Shown here in pieces: positions 50,110 to 58,559 of a stretch of DNA of 64,000 nt; positions within the stretch are counted from its first letter, which is position 1, and each line of letters begins with the position of its first letter. The stretch is from Hymenobacter caeli (GTDB taxonomy: Bacteria > Bacteroidota > Bacteroidia > Cytophagales > Hymenobacteraceae), in contig NZ_JABSNP010000004.1 in assembly GCF_013294115.1 (NCBI RefSeq), positions 1 through 64,000 of the forward strand, in the 5' to 3' direction. The position numbers and the translations under genes were made by a program. The notes below the pieces were generated by a model. It made no database searches. It was given only the letters and a program-made list of their open reading frames with translations, and was not told the origin of the DNA.

Positions 50110-50430
50110 ATGATAACCGAAGCGCAAATCCAGGCCGTGGTGGCCCGCATCGTGGCGGGCTATGCGCCCGACCGGATTATTCTGTTCGGTTCCTACGCCT
50201 ACGGTACGCCCACCGACGACTCGGACCTGGACTTGCTGATTATTAAGCAAAATGCTGAAGCCAAGCGTACCGAGCGTGCCGTGGCCGTCTGGCGGCATTT
50301 GTGGGATGCCAGCTTGCCAGCAATGGATATTTTGGTTCGGACCCCAGCCGAAATGACTGAGGCGGCCGACGTGGCCTATTCGGTAGAAAATACGGCGCTA
50401 CAACAAGGACGACTTTTGTATGCAGCCTAA
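50110..50430 (+). CDS. MNT-type minimal nucleotidyltransferase (second pair)
   Basis: This 106-residue protein has the motif GSYAYGTPTDDSDLDLLII, with GS at residues 27-28 and catalytic D39 and D41. It overlaps the downstream HEPN gene by 11 bp. Unlike the pair at 13521-14200, here the MNT gene comes first. It lies between sucA and odhB on the same strand and is likely part of their transcript. Confidence 0.9.
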   Translation: MITEAQIQAVVARIVAGYAPDRIILFGSYAYGTPTDDSDLDLLIIKQNAEAKRTERAVAVWRHLWDASLPAMDILVRTPAEMTEAADVAYSVENTALQQGRLLYAA

Positions 50431-50830
50431 ATCAGCCGACCAAACCCGCGTGGAAGTGCTGTTGCGAGCCGCTGACCGCGACACGGAAACTGCCGAAACA
50501 TTGGTCAGATATTCGCCCCACCTCTACGAAAGCGTAGGATTCAGCTGCCAGCAATTGGTCGAAAAGTACGCGAAAGCAGTGCTAGTCGCCAACGGCCTAC
50601 CCGCGCCATTCATCCATGTTCTGGTTAAGCTGCTGGTGCCCTTAGTGCAAGCCTCCATCATCACCCTTGGCGGAGCAGAAATGGACTCAGCGGCTATTTT
50701 GCAAAGTTTTGCGGTGGAATGGCGCTACGAAACCGACGATGCACCCAGCTACACCTCTACTGAACTGCTCGTCATGGCGCACCGTTTTCGCGACAAGCTC
50801 CGGCCGCTGGCCGTGGCTTTTTTACCTTAA
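50420..50830 (+). CDS. HEPN domain protein (second pair)
   Basis: This 136-residue helical protein has the HEPN helix pair (ESVGFSCQQLVEKYAKAVLV) and a conserved FIHVLVKLL segment where the active-site R/K-x-x-x-H motif of the family lies; the basic residue is not obvious, so activity is uncertain. Its partner is the overlapping MNT gene. The end is 31 bp before the odhB ATG. Confidence 0.82.
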   Translation: MQPKSADQTRVEVLLRAADRDTETAETLVRYSPHLYESVGFSCQQLVEKYAKAVLVANGLPAPFIHVLVKLLVPLVQASIITLGGAEMDSAAILQSFAVEWRYETDDAPSYTSTELLVMAHRFRDKLRPLAVAFLP

Positions 50831-52660: not shown

Positions 52661-53215
52661 ATGAAAGATAAAAAAATCAAAGCCGAACGAGCAAAGTTGC
52701 GCAAAAACCCCGGGCCGCCGAAGCCCGCCAATACTTCCCGCTTCTGGCCCGTGCTGGGCCTGGCGGCCTTCACCGGCATGCGCACCACCAGCGGCCCTAC
52801 CTTTTTGAGCCACTACCTGAGCGGCCAGGCCCGCCCCAAGGGCTTGGCCCAATCGCCCCTGCGCTTCCTGCAAAACGCCACCGTGGCCAGCACCCTCAAA
52901 GGGCTGTTGGCCCTGGAACTGGTGGGCGACAAAAACCCGAAAGGCGGCAACCGCACCGAGCCCCAGCAAGTAGGGGCCCGGGCGGCCTCGGGGGCCCTTG
53001 TGGGCGCTGCGCTCTACAAGGCGCGGGGCGGCAGCGCGGGGGGCGGGGCCCTGGTGGGGGCCCTGGCGGCCGTTGCCGCCACGTTCGCCAGCTTCTGGCT
53101 GCGCAAAACCATCAGTGAGCGCACCGGGACGCATACTTCCATCGTGGGCTTAGGCGAGGACGCGCTGGTAGTGGCCGGGGGCATAGCCTGGGTAAAAACG
53201 CAAGCGGCGAGGTAA
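52661..53215 (+). CDS. DUF4126-like small membrane protein
   Basis: This 184-residue protein has the motif GLAAFTGMRTTSGPTFL and the glycine-rich segments SGALVGAALYKARGG and GALVGALAAVAATFASFWLR, consistent with the DUF4126 family of multi-pass membrane proteins. Four or five short hydrophobic segments are visible. The function is unknown. It starts 10 bp after the odhB terminator and is followed by a strong terminator, so it appears to be a single-gene unit. Confidence 0.7.
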   Translation: MKDKKIKAERAKLRKNPGPPKPANTSRFWPVLGLAAFTGMRTTSGPTFLSHYLSGQARPKGLAQSPLRFLQNATVASTLKGLLALELVGDKNPKGGNRTEPQQVGARAASGALVGAALYKARGGSAGGGALVGALAAVAATFASFWLRKTISERTGTHTSIVGLGEDALVVAGGIAWVKTQAAR

Positions 53216-53345: not shown

Positions 53346-53381
53346 TTTGCGCTACTGCTATTTTATAAATCCGTAGATTTG
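53346..53381 (+). promoter_or_regulatory. Putative promoter of the Crp/Fnr gene
   Basis: TAGATTTG (53374-53381) matches TAnnTTTG, with TTTG at 53346-53349, 24 bp upstream (slightly longer than the usual 17-23). The predicted start is about 20 bp before the ATG at 53409. Confidence 0.4.
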
Positions 53382-53408
53382 TTATGTCATATTTTATTCA
53401 AGTGCCGA

Positions 53409-54116
53409 ATGAGTCGCTTCCAAAGCCCCATGTGCTCGGATTGCCCCCGCCGCAAGGGGCCGTTGATGGGGTGTTGCCAGCTGGAAGAACTCGGTAGGAT
53501 TGCCGGCAACAAGGTGGCGCACGCGTACCAGAAGGGGCAAGTCATTTTCAGCGAGGGCAGCGCCACGCTGGGCATGCACTGCGTGCACCACGGCCGCATC
53601 AAGGTGACGCGGGCCGGCGGCGACGGCAAAGAGCAGATTGTGGGCCTGGTGAAGGGCGGCGACAGCATGGGCATCCGCTCGCTGCTGACCGAAGCCCGTT
53701 ACTCGACGTCGGCCGTGGCCCTCGACGACTGCGTGGTGTGCGTGGTGCCGCGCACCGATTTTTTGCAGCTGGTGCAGTCCAACCTCCAGTTCTCGGTGGC
53801 GCTGATGCAGCAGCTGGCCCAAAGCCTGGGCGAGGCCGAGCAGCGGATGCTGCAACTGGCCTACAAGCCGGTGCGCGAACGGCTGGCCGAAGCGCTGCTG
53901 CTTTTGCAGCGCACGTTTGGGCAGGAGGACGGGGCCGAGCCGTTCAGCATCCTTTTCTCGCGCGACGACTTGGCCGCCCTCGTGGGCACAGCCAAAGAAA
54001 CGGCCACCCGCCTGCTGTCAGAGCTGCGCGAAGACGGCACCATCGACACGCGCGGCAGCCGCATCACCCTGCTGGCCCCCGAGCGCCTGGCGCGCATTTC
54101 CAGCCAGTACGACTAA
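53409..54116 (+). CDS. Crp/Fnr family transcription regulator
   Basis: The start at 53409 gives 235 residues. An N-terminal cyclic-nucleotide-binding-type beta roll (residues about 30-130) and a C-terminal helix-turn-helix (FSRDDLAALVGTAKETATRLLSELRED) are clear. The N-terminus carries a cysteine cluster (MCSDCPRRKGPLMGCC) and a further DDCVVCVVP at about residue 108, a layout reminiscent of Fnr-type iron-sulfur sensors. A 635-bp gene-free AT-rich region follows. Confidence 0.9.
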   Translation: MSRFQSPMCSDCPRRKGPLMGCCQLEELGRIAGNKVAHAYQKGQVIFSEGSATLGMHCVHHGRIKVTRAGGDGKEQIVGLVKGGDSMGIRSLLTEARYSTSAVALDDCVVCVVPRTDFLQLVQSNLQFSVALMQQLAQSLGEAEQRMLQLAYKPVRERLAEALLLLQRTFGQEDGAEPFSILFSRDDLAALVGTAKETATRLLSELREDGTIDTRGSRITLLAPERLARISSQYD

Positions 54117-54751
54117 CGGCGGGCCGGGCGCGGCGGCCCCCCGTGCTTCGCATGGCAGCGGCGCGGGCCCGGCTGGGCATACCGTCCGCCACGGGCCTTC
54201 CGCCAAAATCCGTGACGGAGCGCCCAGCACCCGGGGGAGCGCGGCCATCAACCCACCGGTAAAACGGATTAATACTATTTGGGCAACACGATTTTGCGCA
54301 GGCATGATATTGCTTTAATCATACTTTTGCCATGCAAATACGGCATTGCGGGGGTTAATCATTTTTGAAAGTGACGGATATCATTTTTAGATAATCCCAG
54401 GGAGCGAGATATTTGTAACACCAAAAAGGGGGTGAAAATACCGGTTGAAGGAGGTATTAAAGACGTTGAATGATTGGGATAGACGGATGAAATTTTTTAG
54501 ACCATTCTATAAAAATTCAAATTTTTCTAGTATGTTTGTCAGGCACTCTGCTATAAGTGCTAATTAGAACCAGCTAGGCGTCTTTCTATCACTAACCCTT
54601 TAACATTAATAAAATATAAAAATATCCTCATTAGAAGTCTCGTCAAAAAACCAGGTTCGTTTACCTAAATGAACAATGGGTTGGTCAGCGGCTGAAACCT
54701 CCGTATCACGTCATATTTATTCGTTTCCTTTTTTCAATACCCGTATTCCCA
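54117..54751. other. 635-bp gene-free region
   Basis: The first 150 bp are GC-rich and the rest is AT-rich with no credible coding frame. It contains a possible Crp/Fnr-type half-palindrome TGA-N6-TCA at 54372-54383 and a lone TAnnTTTG match (TATGTTTG, 54531-54538). It might hold regulatory sites or a small RNA; nothing more specific can be claimed. Confidence 0.5.
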
Positions 54752-55135
54752 ATGGCTTACTCTGCTAATTCCCCCGCCGGCCAGGCCGTGCAAAATATCC
54801 TCGCCGACTTGCCGCAGCTGATGGCGGTGGCCATCGTGGACGTGACCTCGGGCATGAGCCTGGCCTCGCACTCGAACTCGCCGGCCATCAACCCCGACAC
54901 GGCGGCCGCCTACAACACGGAGGTCGTCAAGCAAAAGCAAAAGGCGATGGCCGCCCTCAAGCTCCAGGGCGAGACGATCGAGGACATCCTCATCACGCTC
55001 ACCAACCAGCTGCACCTGATCAAGCTCAGCACCAGCGGCACCAAGTTCATCTACCTCGTCGTCAACATGCGCGACACCAACCTGGCCATCGCCCGCGAAG
55101 TCCTCCGCGCCAACGTGGAGCACATCAACAGCTAA
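54752..55135 (+). CDS. Roadblock/LC7-like domain protein (copy A)
   Basis: This 127-residue protein has the roadblock/MglB layout: a helix (VQNILADLPQL), a beta strand with VAIVDVTSGMSLASHS, a central helix (AAYNTEVVKQKQKAMAALKL), and a C-terminal strand-helix (FIYLVVNMRDTNLAIAREVL). Roadblock proteins bind Ras-like GTPases; none is in the window. Residues 12-121 are encoded by DNA that recurs perfectly at 56664-56995 (copy C). The ATG at 54752 is preferred. Confidence 0.75.
   Translation: MAYSANSPAGQAVQNILADLPQLMAVAIVDVTSGMSLASHSNSPAINPDTAAAYNTEVVKQKQKAMAALKLQGETIEDILITLTNQLHLIKLSTSGTKFIYLVVNMRDTNLAIAREVLRANVEHINS
54784..55115. repeat. 332-bp perfect direct repeat, left copy
   Basis: Positions 54784-55115 are identical to 56664-56995 (offset 1880 bp). 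Identity stops abruptly at both ends inside the coding sequences, so this is a gene-level duplication of the roadblock-like domain with recent sequence exchange. Confidence 0.97.
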
Positions 55136-55216
55136 AGCGGCCGTCGCAACGGGCCGCTGGCCACGCCTCGTGCGGTGGTGGCCAGCGGCCCCGGCGGCCG
55201 CGCCGGTTTGCAGGCC

Positions 55217-55678
55217 ATGAAAATCCCGTTTTTTCAACAGTTGCAAAACTGGGCCGGTCAACCCGTGCGGCAGCTGGTGGTGGCCGCCGCGGGCCCGGCC
55301 CGCGCCGGCATCGAGCGCGTGCTGCGCCGGGTGCTGGCCGAGTTGCCCGAGCTGCTGGCCACCGCCGTGGTGGACGTGGCCACGGGGCAGGTGCTGGCCG
55401 GCTACGCCGCCAGCCGCGAATTCCGCCCCGGCGCGGTGGCGGGCCCCAACGCCGAGGTGGTGCGCCAGCTGCACGCGCTGCTGGGGGCCCTGCCCGAACA
55501 GCAGGAACAGCTGGAAGAAGTAATGGTAACGCTGCGCTCGCAGGTGCACTTGCTGCGGTTGCTGCCTCAGAACCGACAGTTTTTGTACCTGGCCGTGGAT
55601 TGCCGGGATACCAACCTGGCCATTGCCCGGGAAGTGATGCGCAGCAGCCTGGAGCGGTTCGAAACGTTAATTGGCTAA
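55217..55678 (+). CDS. Roadblock/LC7-like domain protein (copy B, diverged)
   Basis: The start at 55217 gives 153 residues. It has the same layout as copy A: a helix, TAVVDVATGQVLAGYAASR, a central helix and a C-terminal DCRDTNLAIAREVMRSS. Sequence identity to A is moderate, so B is an older paralogue. The N-terminal extension (MKIPFFQQLQNWAG) is specific to this copy. It is followed 62 bp later by the gene at 55741 on the same strand. Confidence 0.72.
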   Translation: MKIPFFQQLQNWAGQPVRQLVVAAAGPARAGIERVLRRVLAELPELLATAVVDVATGQVLAGYAASREFRPGAVAGPNAEVVRQLHALLGALPEQQEQLEEVMVTLRSQVHLLRLLPQNRQFLYLAVDCRDTNLAIAREVMRSSLERFETLIG

Positions 55679-55740
55679 CCCTTCATTTGCTATTTATCGC
55701 CTTTTTTGTTTCACCTCTCACCCTTTTTCCTTTTGCTCCT

Positions 55741-56433
55741 ATGAACTTAACTGCTACTCCCTTCGACGCCCAGACCGGCGAATTGCTGCCGGTGTACCGG
55801 GACGCTTACTTGCGCGGCGACCTGGCCCGCTCGTCGGCCCGGGCCGTGGAAAAATACCTGAGCCAGGACGGCGACCGGGCCCACGCCACCCTCACCCGCT
55901 GGCACCAGCTGGGGGCCGGCTCCGACGCCACCGCTACCCCGACCTGGGTGCAGAAGCAGCTGCAGTTTGTGCGGGCCCAGCCGGTGCGCTTCCGCCACCG
56001 GGCCCTGGCCCTGGTGGCCGTGGGGGCCCTGGCCGCGGGGGCGTCGATGGCCGGCACCCGCCTGCCCGTGCACCAGCTGCGCCTGGCCGCCGCCCACGAC
56101 CTGCTGGCCGCGGCCCCCGCCGCCGTCCTTTCCCTCGAAGCCGCCGACCTGGCCGCCGCCCGCACCGTGCTGGTGCACGGCCGCATCCTGGACGAAGCCG
56201 GCCAGCCGCTGGTGGGGGCCACCGTGCTCCGCAAAGGCACCCACTTCGGGGCCAGCACCAACGCCACCGGCGACTACCTGCTGCCCGTGCCGGCGGGGGC
56301 GGCCACCACGCTGCAATACGGCTACGCCGGCTACGCCGAGCAAGACGTGGCCGTGCGCGGCAACGCCCCGGTGGCCGTAACGCTCCAGCCCAATGCCCCG
56401 GCCCCCAAGCGCCGGCACTGGCTGTTCTTTTAA
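55741..56433 (+). CDS. Membrane-anchored protein with carboxypeptidase-regulatory-like domain
   Basis: This 230-residue protein has a soluble N-terminal part (residues 1-85, with SARAVEKYLSQDGDRAHATL), a hydrophobic segment at about 88-105 (ALALVAVGALAAGASMAG), and a C-terminal beta domain (VLVHGRILDEAGQPLVGATVLRKGTHFGASTNATGDYLL) typical of CarboxypepD_reg-like folds. It lies between roadblock copies B and C on the same strand, so a shared role is suggested by position only. It may have the topology of an anti-sigma-like anchor, but no zinc-finger motif is present. Confidence 0.65.
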   Translation: MNLTATPFDAQTGELLPVYRDAYLRGDLARSSARAVEKYLSQDGDRAHATLTRWHQLGAGSDATATPTWVQKQLQFVRAQPVRFRHRALALVAVGALAAGASMAGTRLPVHQLRLAAAHDLLAAAPAAVLSLEAADLAAARTVLVHGRILDEAGQPLVGATVLRKGTHFGASTNATGDYLLPVPAGAATTLQYGYAGYAEQDVAVRGNAPVAVTLQPNAPAPKRRHWLFF

Positions 56434-56465
56434 ATCAGGCGGGCAATTGCTCGAAAATAAACAGG

Positions 56466-56533
56466 TTATCAGTTGCTCGTTGGGGGCCGTCCGTCAGATT
56501 TTTGGCGGCCGGTCCCCAACGAGCAACTGATAA
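56466..56533. repeat. Inverted repeat, possible terminator
   Basis: 20-nt perfect arms (56466-56485 and 56514-56533) flank a 28-nt centre. It lies between the gene ending at 56433 and roadblock copy C. Confidence 0.75.
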
Positions 56534-56559
56534 TTTAACCGGCCCCCCGGCTGCCCCGC

Positions 56560-57012
56560 GTGAAAGCCAGGACCTACCGCAAATTAGTCGAGAAGAAAAA
56601 CCAGGAACTCGCCCTCGCGTCCGCGGCGGCGGTGCCGGCCGGCCCCCACCCGGCCGCGGCGGGGGCCGTGCAAAATATCCTCGCCGACTTGCCGCAGCTG
56701 ATGGCGGTGGCCATCGTGGACGTGACCTCGGGCATGAGCCTGGCCTCGCACTCGAACTCGCCGGCCATCAACCCCGACACGGCGGCCGCCTACAACACGG
56801 AGGTCGTCAAGCAAAAGCAAAAGGCGATGGCCGCCCTCAAGCTCCAGGGCGAGACGATCGAGGACATCCTCATCACGCTCACCAACCAGCTGCACCTGAT
56901 CAAGCTCAGCACCAGCGGCACCAAGTTCATCTACCTCGTCGTCAACATGCGCGACACCAACCTGGCCATCGCCCGCGAAGTCCTCCGCGCCAACGCCAGC
57001 GGCTTGGACTGA
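56560..57012 (+). CDS. Roadblock/LC7-like domain protein (copy C)
   Basis: The start is a GTG at 56560 giving 150 residues. The first 35 are basic and lysine-rich (KARTYRKLVEKKNQE), unlike copy A. From residue 36 to 145 the coding DNA is the same as copy A with no differences over 332 bp (56664-56995). The C-terminus (ASGLD) differs. A strong terminator follows at 57032. Confidence 0.75.
   Translation: MKARTYRKLVEKKNQELALASAAAVPAGPHPAAAGAVQNILADLPQLMAVAIVDVTSGMSLASHSNSPAINPDTAAAYNTEVVKQKQKAMAALKLQGETIEDILITLTNQLHLIKLSTSGTKFIYLVVNMRDTNLAIAREVLRANASGLD
56664..56995. repeat. 332-bp perfect direct repeat, right copy
   Basis: It is identical to 54784-55115. The intervening 1.5 kb contains copy B and the membrane protein. 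Confidence 0.97.
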
Positions 57013-57152: not shown

Positions 57153-58559
57153 ATGAACCAATACGACGTTACGGTAATCGGTAGCGGCCCGGGCGGCTAC
57201 GTGGCCGCCATTCGCTGCGCCCAGCTGGGCTTGAAAACGGCCCTGATTGAAAAATACCCCACCCTGGGCGGCACCTGCCTCAACGTGGGCTGCATCCCGA
57301 GCAAGGCGCTGCTCGACAGCACCGAGCACTACCACAACGCCCACACCACGTTCCGGGAGCACGGCATCGACTTGGAAAACCTGCGGGTGAACATGCCGCA
57401 GATGGTGGACCGCAAAGCCGGTGTGGTGAAGGCCAACGTGGACGGCATCGCCTACCTGATGAAGAAGAACAAAATCGAGGTGCTGCAAGGCCTCGGCTCG
57501 TTCGTCGACAAAACCCACATCAGCGTCGCGCCCACCGGCGGCGGCGCGGCCCAAACCATCGAAACCAAGAACGTCATCATCGCCACCGGCTCGAAGCCCA
57601 CGGTGCTGCCGTTCATTCAGCAGGACAAGCAGCGCATCATCACCAGCACCGAGGCCCTGAACATCCGCGAGGTGCCGGGCAGCATGGTGGTGGTGGGCGG
57701 CGGCGTCATCGGCCTGGAGCTGGCCTCGGTGTACGCCCGCCTGGGCACGAAGGTGTCCATCGTGGAGTACACCGACAGCATCATCCCGACCATGGATTTG
57801 TCGCTGGGCAAGGAGCTGAAGCGGGTGCTGGGCAAAATCGGCATCCAGTTCTACATGAGCCACAAGGTGACCGGGGCCGTCCGCGAGGGCGACACCGTGA
57901 CCGTGACGGCCACCTCGCCCAAGGGCGAGGAAATCAAGCTCGTGGGCGACTACTGCCTGGTGGCCGTGGGCCGCTCGGCCTACACCCAGGGCCTCAACCT
58001 GGAAGCCGCCGGCGTGCAGATGGAGGAGCGCGGCCGCGTGAACGTGGACGCCCACATGCAAACCAACGTGCCGGGCATCTACGCCATCGGCGACGTGGTG
58101 CGCGGGGCCATGCTGGCCCACAAGGCCGAGGAGGAAGGCACGTTCGTGGCCGAAACCATCGCCGGCCAGAAGCCGCACATCAACTACCTGCTCATCCCGG
58201 GCGTGGTGTACACCTGGCCCGAGGTGGCCGGCGTGGGCTACACCGAGGAGCAGCTAAAGGAGCAGGGCAAGGCCTACAAGGTGGGCTCGTTCCCCTTCAA
58301 GGCCAGCGGCCGCGCCCGCGCCAGCGGCGATACCGACGGCTTCGTGAAGGTGCTGGCCGACAAAACGACCGACGAAATCCTGGGCGTGCACATGATTGGG
58401 CCCCGCATCGCCGACCTCATCGCCGAGGCCGTGACGGCGATGGAGTTCCGCGCCTCCGCCGAGGACGTGGCCCGCATGAGCCACGCCCACCCCACCTACG
58501 CCGAGGCCATGAAGGAAGCCTGCCTCGCCGCCACCGAGAACCGGGCGCTGCACATGTAG
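57153..58559 (+). CDS. lpd: Dihydrolipoyl dehydrogenase (E3)
   Basis: The start at 57153 gives 468 residues. This flavoprotein reoxidises dihydrolipoyl groups in 2-oxoacid dehydrogenase and glycine cleavage complexes. The FAD motif GSGPGGYVAAIRCAQLG, the redox-active disulfide TCLNVGCIPSK (C42 and C47), the NAD motif GGGVIGLELASVYARLG and the C-terminal HAHPTYAEAMKEA are present. It can serve the E1/E2 components encoded elsewhere in the window. Confidence 0.97.
   Translation: MNQYDVTVIGSGPGGYVAAIRCAQLGLKTALIEKYPTLGGTCLNVGCIPSKALLDSTEHYHNAHTTFREHGIDLENLRVNMPQMVDRKAGVVKANVDGIAYLMKKNKIEVLQGLGSFVDKTHISVAPTGGGAAQTIETKNVIIATGSKPTVLPFIQQDKQRIITSTEALNIREVPGSMVVVGGGVIGLELASVYARLGTKVSIVEYTDSIIPTMDLSLGKELKRVLGKIGIQFYMSHKVTGAVREGDTVTVTATSPKGEEIKLVGDYCLVAVGRSAYTQGLNLEAAGVQMEERGRVNVDAHMQTNVPGIYAIGDVVRGAMLAHKAEEEGTFVAETIAGQKPHINYLLIPGVVYTWPEVAGVGYTEEQLKEQGKAYKVGSFPFKASGRARASGDTDGFVKVLADKTTDEILGVHMIGPRIADLIAEAVTAMEFRASAEDVARMSHAHPTYAEAMKEACLAATENRALHM

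Follow-up and report, generated by a model that had tools for sequence, protein, structure and literature searches.

The bacterium Hymenobacter caeli carries, at positions 54752 to 57012 of the 64,000-nucleotide stretch analysed here (contig NZ_JABSNP010000004.1, positions 1 to 64,000; hereafter the window), a cluster of four genes in the order A-B-D-C, all in the same direction, in which A, B and C are paralogues of roadblock/LC7 type and D encodes a membrane protein. The best-known role of roadblock proteins is to regulate small GTPases. The modelled fold of A is that of the roadblock/LC7 proteins, the gene order is conserved in relatives, the four genes are under purifying selection, the cores of A and C are kept alike by gene conversion, and no GTPase for them was found with the models used. 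Our preferred reading, to which we give a probability of about 0.5, is that these are roadblock proteins that lost their GTPase and may now act as a scaffold on D. The row of three roadblock-type genes and one membrane-protein gene had been proposed in an earlier note on this DNA, and is borne out by the open reading frames (ORFs), the fold model and the membrane segment of D.

54752..55135, + strand: gene A, 127 aa, roadblock/LC7 fold, no N-terminal tail (MAYSxNxPAG..); from ORF, AlphaFold2, Foldseek and VIA-align
55217..55678, + strand: gene B, 153 aa, diverged roadblock-family paralogue with N-terminal tail MKIPFF..; from 42% identity to A and tail pattern
55741..56433, + strand: gene D, 230 aa membrane protein; from Pfam, AlphaFold model, match to a PDB structure and hydropathy
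56560..57012, + strand: gene C, 150 aa, roadblock core after basic tail VKARTYRKLVEKK.., GTG start; from ORF and tail pattern
54784..55115, + strand: 332-bp block, copy in A; from exact comparison
56664..56995, + strand: 332-bp block, copy in C; from exact comparison

Fold, tails and distribution of A, B and C

The AlphaFold2 model of A, built with 88 sequences, has a mean predicted local distance difference test score (pLDDT) of 94.7 and a predicted template modelling score (pTM) of 0.88. Its elements (helix 8-19, strands 25-30 and 36-41, helix 48-68, strands 78-82, 86-92 and 98-105, helix 111-125) follow the alpha-beta-beta-alpha-beta-beta-beta-alpha order of the roadblock/LC7 fold. The 50 matches listed by Foldseek for this model are MglB, Asgard and Streptomyces roadblock proteins, MglC and Ragulator chains (E 1.3e-6 to 2.9e-5), as judged from the entry titles, together with 5x6u and 5x6v, which we take to be roadblock entries. 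VIA-align gives Z scores of 16.6 against an Asgard roadblock protein and 16.2 against MglB, with profilins and Rag C-terminal domains lower, at about 11 to 12. By its predicted structure A is thus a roadblock/LC7 protein, and B and C are of roadblock type by their homology to A, in keeping with the reading of the earlier note; a shared fold is by itself no demonstration of function.

A comparison with roadblock/LC7 profiles, which the earlier note had proposed as a check, gave a different result, in that no roadblock model in Pfam, NCBIfam or PHROGs matches A, B or C. PF03259 (Robl_LC7), a match to which is a rule of detection and not the definition of the superfamily, has no match among 30 family members scanned and none above the cut-off in the H. 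caeli genome. Aligned by hhalign with the classical roadblock proteins of two outgroup loci described below (L174 and L175), the A-family profile reaches E 1.9e-4 with a probability of only 47%. DUF6981 matches 7 of the 30 members weakly (best E 0.0022), and a sequence search of the PDB yields no match for A and, for the A profile, one chance-level match (E 0.82).

The three proteins differ at their N-termini. A starts directly with MAYSxN. In 37 of the 44 scored loci B opens with MKIPF.. or a similar sequence, and in 36 of 42 C opens with VK(A/P)(K/R)(S/T)YRK.. (VKARTYRK.. in the window); these tail counts leave out three loci (L099, L106 and L107) in which the C frame opens before the middle of the D frame. 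The ATG start of B at 55217 is nested in a longer GTG frame from 55175. At the protein level A and B are 42% identical, which agrees with the description of B as diverged. Compared with H. nivis S9.2P, the nearest named relative found (A 91% identical), the ratios of nonsynonymous to synonymous substitution rates are low (0.13 for A, 0.22 for B, 0.41 for D and 0.13 for C), and all four genes therefore look functional, under purifying selection.

Seven family members are encoded in the H. caeli genome: besides A, B and C, contigs C12 and C8 carry two each. Up to 10 copies occur per genome elsewhere. Of the genomes scanned, 46 of 61 in the genus have members, as do 59 of 150 in the taxonomic family, spread over 2 of 6 genera. 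At the level of the order the count is 34 of 291; 28 of these 34 belong to the same taxonomic family, and the other six comprise four strong matches (E 4.1e-21 or better) and two weak ones. One roadblock-family pair of H. caeli (locus L038, 9205-12321) lies directly downstream of genes for a bacteriorhodopsin (PF01036, E 1.9e-35) and a beta-carotene dioxygenase (PF15461, E 2.4e-43).

Gene conversion between A and C

The block shared by A and C is exactly 332 bp long, at an offset of 1880, and the flanks diverge at once on both sides, as the earlier note had said of a perfect 332-bp identity between copies about 1.9 kb apart with unlike ends; no 20-mer of the block occurs elsewhere on the + strand of the window. 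Where that note had offered recent duplication or gene conversion as the cause, conversion stands and duplication falls, because A and C hold the same conserved positions in relatives and keep their own tails, and because other species show separate tracts of A-C identity. The 332-bp identity is the product of gene conversion. A simple tandem duplication as its source is ruled out by the presence of A and C at the same places in relatives, with different tails.

As a strict rule, we counted as conversion only those cases in which A-C identity exceeded both the best A-A and the best C-C identity, and applied this to 44 distinct genome pairs of A and C. Three pairs were retained, those of the window, H. 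rubidus (L101) and H. negativus (L108). The longest runs of A-C identity, in aligned positions, are 331 in the window, 260 in H. rubidus, 216 in H. negativus and 92 in H. armeniacus (L098), each with p <=0.0005 against shuffled differences, and runs in the other 40 pairs span 7 to 53 positions. The tracts of H. rubidus and H. negativus have limits that differ from those of the window. The A/C pair is a clear natural case of recurrent gene conversion confined to a shared core.

The comparison with H. nivis gives the same picture for part of the block. Over block positions 41-332, A and C of H. nivis are 92.1% identical, and the window sequence is 87.3% identical to H. nivis A and 86.0% to H. 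nivis C, so that in each of the two species A and C resemble one another more than either resembles its orthologue. Over the whole core H. nivis falls outside the strict rule (A-C 0.859 against A-A 0.879), since its tails and 5' edge differ. Of the 35 sites that distinguish A from C in H. nivis, the window agrees with A at 22 and with C at 11, and 2 sites match neither; at the 5' edge 8 of 10 informative sites follow H. nivis A, and six neighbouring sites at 54996-55036 follow H. nivis C. These sites point to a tract copied mainly from A onto C, with hints of mosaicism in its past. The C proteins of many relatives run from the C tail straight into MAYSxNxPAG, the start of A, and look like a C tail placed before a complete A gene, which may be the relic of an older A-onto-C event.

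Conversion, mainly of A onto C, would keep the cores of A and C interchangeable and leave the gene-specific tails untouched. Neutral homogenisation, in which similar tracts in direct orientation recombine now and then without functional reason, falls somewhat short of even odds in our estimate and is nearly as likely an origin as the keeping of compatible cores. Direct repeats about 1.9 kb apart suffice in principle for such recombination, the tracts vary between species and most genomes have none, and B, too diverged, is not converted; that the tails lie outside the tract in the window and that the C tail is widely kept fits selection, on the tails at least. We reject an origin of the identity in misassembly: the genome is a draft of 45 contigs, but both copies lie on a single contig of 317,717 bp between different unique flanks, and H. 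rubidus and H. negativus, which were assembled separately, show like tracts with other limits.

The membrane protein D and the conserved gene order

D is predicted to consist of a helical N-terminal domain (residues 17-60), one membrane segment (about 83-106) and a transthyretin-like C-terminal domain (142-214), and ends in the motif (K/R)HWLFF. Hydropathy shows one moderately hydrophobic segment, residues 88-106, with a mean Kyte-Doolittle value of 1.76. In the AlphaFold model (pLDDT 74.8, pTM 0.40), helices at the N-terminus are followed by a membrane helix near 83-104 and then by a C-terminal beta-sandwich, which matches the N-terminal extension (NTE) domain of SusC (PDB 9hfj, E 1.4e-7) as well as transthyretin-like domains. 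A CarbopepD_reg_2 domain is found in the window D (E 2.6e-11) and in all 38 D members scanned, and the 38 relatives of D align over their full length. An arginine-rich motif, RFRRRA in the consensus, precedes the membrane segment and suggests that the N-terminus lies inside the cell.

This membrane layout is also that of an anti-sigma factor, and D could in principle be an anti-sigma-like receptor, with the roadblock proteins as its cytoplasmic co-regulators acting on transcription. The anti-sigma zinc domain zf-HC2 is matched by 3 of the 38 D members, at best with E 0.0064, but none of the 38 has a cysteine in its first 82 residues, as a zinc-binding His/Cys motif would ask for, and no sigma-factor gene was recognised among the window neighbours; we consider this reading improbable.

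The position of the cluster relative to its neighbours is conserved, the most regular of them being an upstream gene for a Crp/Fnr-type regulator:

53379..54116, + strand: Crp/Fnr-type regulator, conserved upstream neighbour; from cNMP_binding (E 1.2e-22), HTH_Crp_2 (E 2.9e-16) and synteny
54117..54751, + strand: AT-rich leader ahead of A; GC content 46% against 64% for the window
57153..58559, + strand: dihydrolipoyl dehydrogenase gene (lpd), downstream neighbour; Lpd match in 30 of 47 loci

H. nivis S9.2P is collinear with the window over sucA, sucB, the Crp-type gene, A, B, D, C and lpd, where lpd, sucA and sucB are the names that we presume from the translations. In 28 of the first 39 loci from genus genomes, a non-random set taken from the best matches, the Crp-type gene is followed by D and B. 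Counting the window and 78 further loci (79 in all), D lies behind the Crp-type gene in 47 distinct loci, with A in 38 of these and C in 45 (L145 and L150 have no C). The layout of regulator, A, B, D and C thus recurs elsewhere, as the earlier note had suggested looking for; the two outcomes that it had named as fatal to its reading, a lack of roadblock similarity and a random gene order, were not seen. D is also found next to roadblock pairs at unrelated places, as x1-A-D on contig C12 of the same genome and as D-B'-A' in six loci (L179-L183 and L187). As D accompanies roadblock genes at several genome places, we take it as their membrane partner in the proposal below.

Several observations concern the surroundings of these genes. 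In genome G006, two nearly identical D-B'-A' cassettes (L187 and L188), whose A' genes score equally, are separated by about 273 kb. A DUF4126 gene (52661-53215, E 7.2e-9) precedes the Crp-type gene here and follows C in several relatives, and a similar-looking gene stands beside the D-roadblock cassette of L180; its product is possibly a further partner of the module. We do not think that lpd is part of the system. The AT-rich leader is the presumed control region and may hold the promoter. The gap between D and C holds a palindromic element (56466-56533) with 31-nt arms that are 90% complementary. H. nivis lacks this element and has a gap of 36 nt there. Similar half-sites (GTTGTCAGTTGCTCGTTG..) at several other places in the genome make the element resemble a dispersed repeat of the repetitive extragenic palindromic (REP) kind. 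Further upstream, between sucA and sucB, lies a pair of genes (50182-50830) for a nucleotidyltransferase (PF01909, E 5.2e-7) and a HEPN protein (PF05168, E 1.3e-13), laid out as in MNT-HEPN toxin-antitoxin pairs; L039, L040 and L043 have this pair in the same position, and it was not found in L041, L042 and L044.

GTPase search, proposed role and known systems

No GTPase gene was seen beside the cluster among the window neighbours, which confirms the earlier note's remark that no MglA-type GTPase lies next door, and, as far as the models used can see, the same holds for the H. caeli genome, where no small MglA/Ras-type GTPase was detected. PF00025 has nine matches in this genome with E values of 1 or less, and their frames measure 1024, 458, 465, 688, 369, 659, 223, 659 and 333 aa; just one match, at E 0.465, has the size of a small GTPase, and the large frames are, judging by their length, presumably housekeeping GTPases. 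Across the 61 genus genomes, PF08477 at 1e-5 and PF00025 at 1e-7 gave a match in one genome, a 916-aa frame.

Relatives outside the taxonomic family, in two genera of another family of the order, are arranged differently. At L174 and L175, an A-family member lies in an operon with a classical roadblock protein, a 202-aa protein and a small GTPase; these conservon-like operons were recognised by Pfam:

L174, 4751-8979: conservon-like operon
L175, 10558-12647: conservon-like operon

The classical roadblock protein of L174 matches PF03259 (E 1.6e-12), the 202-aa protein has no match, and the GTPases match ATP_bind_1 (E 2.4e-15 and 2.8e-16); in L174 a HAMP-GAF-PAS sensor comes first. In L177 and L178 a family member lies near a SpoIIE-type phosphatase instead of a GTPase. 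The L174 GTPase would itself miss both genus-wide cut-offs (1.2e-5 and 8.2e-5), which makes those searches weak tests, and the argument is therefore carried by this GTPase as a direct query, which matches none of the 150 genomes of the taxonomic family and, as a positive control, matches both home genomes and not G000, G407 or G207. PF03029 matches 31 of the 150 genomes, all belonging to genus g3, and most of the matched frames are close to 450 aa long. Since the outgroup relatives share an operon with a small GTPase, the lineage was probably once GTPase-coupled, and a loss of the GTPase is likely.

Of the two possibilities raised in the earlier note, a GTPase-independent and a trans-acting module, neither is favoured, as no candidate GTPase was found and the outgroup relatives lie in a small-GTPase operon. 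The roadblock proteins might regulate a GTPase encoded elsewhere, an unusual small or a housekeeping one that the models missed. Besides the two outgroup operons, this would fit the helix-2 motif AAAYN(A/T)EVVKxKxKA of the GTPase-coupled relatives, which is kept in A and absent from B and suggests that A still has a partner there; orphan MglB genes are, moreover, common (328 of 749 MglB homologues in a 2014 survey, none of them characterised by then according to a passage of PMC4316618). We consider it unlikely, somewhat less so than the anti-sigma reading, given the larger frames of the PF00025 matches, the confinement of PF03029 to one genus, and the direct query with its control.

In the reading that we prefer, A, B and C, as paralogous proteins of roadblock/LC7 fold, would form one module with D. 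Roadblock proteins act as dimers and as platforms, as established for MglB, MglC and Ragulator, and the cores of A, B and C would most likely combine into both homo- and heterodimers. A would be the bare core, and B and C the same core after different tails, which may direct the dimers to the membrane or to distinct partners. D is predicted to span the inner membrane such that the helical domain lies on the inner side and the transthyretin/SusC-NTE-like domain on the outer side; by docking the roadblock dimers it could report the state of the envelope to a cytoplasmic platform. No small GTPase would take part, the lineage having lost the one to which relatives outside the taxonomic family stay coupled. 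A more specific form of this proposal, a GTPase-free bacterial counterpart of Ragulator in which an interchangeable core carrying address tails docks on a periplasm-reading D and is refreshed by conversion, is tentative and rather doubtful.

Several findings weigh against the scaffold reading. The D model is weak as a whole, as its pTM indicates; 9 of the 47 loci have no A; in 23 of the 79 loci a family member occurs and no D was found nearby, so that D is not needed by every member; 41 of the 44 A/C pairs show no conversion by the strict rule, and conversion is thus not general; and a very divergent GTPase could have been missed.

The closest known systems each share some of these features. 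The MglA-MglB system of Myxococcus and Thermus polarity has several roadblock paralogues in one system, as here, and MglB has a similar fold (template modelling score about 0.75, VIA-align Z 15-16). In the present cluster, however, no MglA-family small GTPase coupled to a roadblock gene was found, identities in structural alignments are 10-18%, and there is no Robl_LC7 match; to our knowledge, the MglA-MglB system has no counterpart of D. MglC binds MglB as a roadblock-roadblock complex, as part of PMC7949163 describes. Ragulator (LAMTOR1-5) combines a membrane-anchored protein with roadblock heterodimers, according to a section of PMC5696360, and LAMTOR chains are among the best PDB matches listed for the A model; here D is a conserved neighbour of the roadblock genes, with a predicted membrane segment. 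Ragulator is eukaryotic and serves Rag GTPases, whereas D is a predicted transmembrane protein with a periplasmic domain and no homology to LAMTOR1 by the tests made. The conservons of Actinomycetota (CvnA-D, as outlined in part of PMC4316618) are resembled by the outgroup operons, with sensor, roadblock protein, protein without match and small GTPase; the window cluster has neither sensor kinase nor GTPase among its neighbours, judged from their translations and, for chosen ones, from Pfam, and adds D. Orphan MglB homologues are, like the present genes, roadblock genes without a neighbouring GTPase, but the survey that counted them (PMC4316618) started from MglB and Robl_LC7 matches, and the present family matches neither Pfam nor NCBIfam models.

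The roadblock fold and the idea of orphan roadblock genes are already known. In the open-access literature we found nothing that joins Hymenobacter with roadblock or with MglB, and, as far as these searches show, the family, its partner D and the conversion are undescribed. Here a whole lineage has many roadblock copies, a conserved gene for a transmembrane partner, no GTPase that could be found, and a GTPase-coupled relative for comparison, so that the role of a roadblock protein without a GTPase becomes a directly testable question. If the proposal is true, roadblock proteins would here have persisted after the loss of their GTPase and would serve purely as a scaffold.

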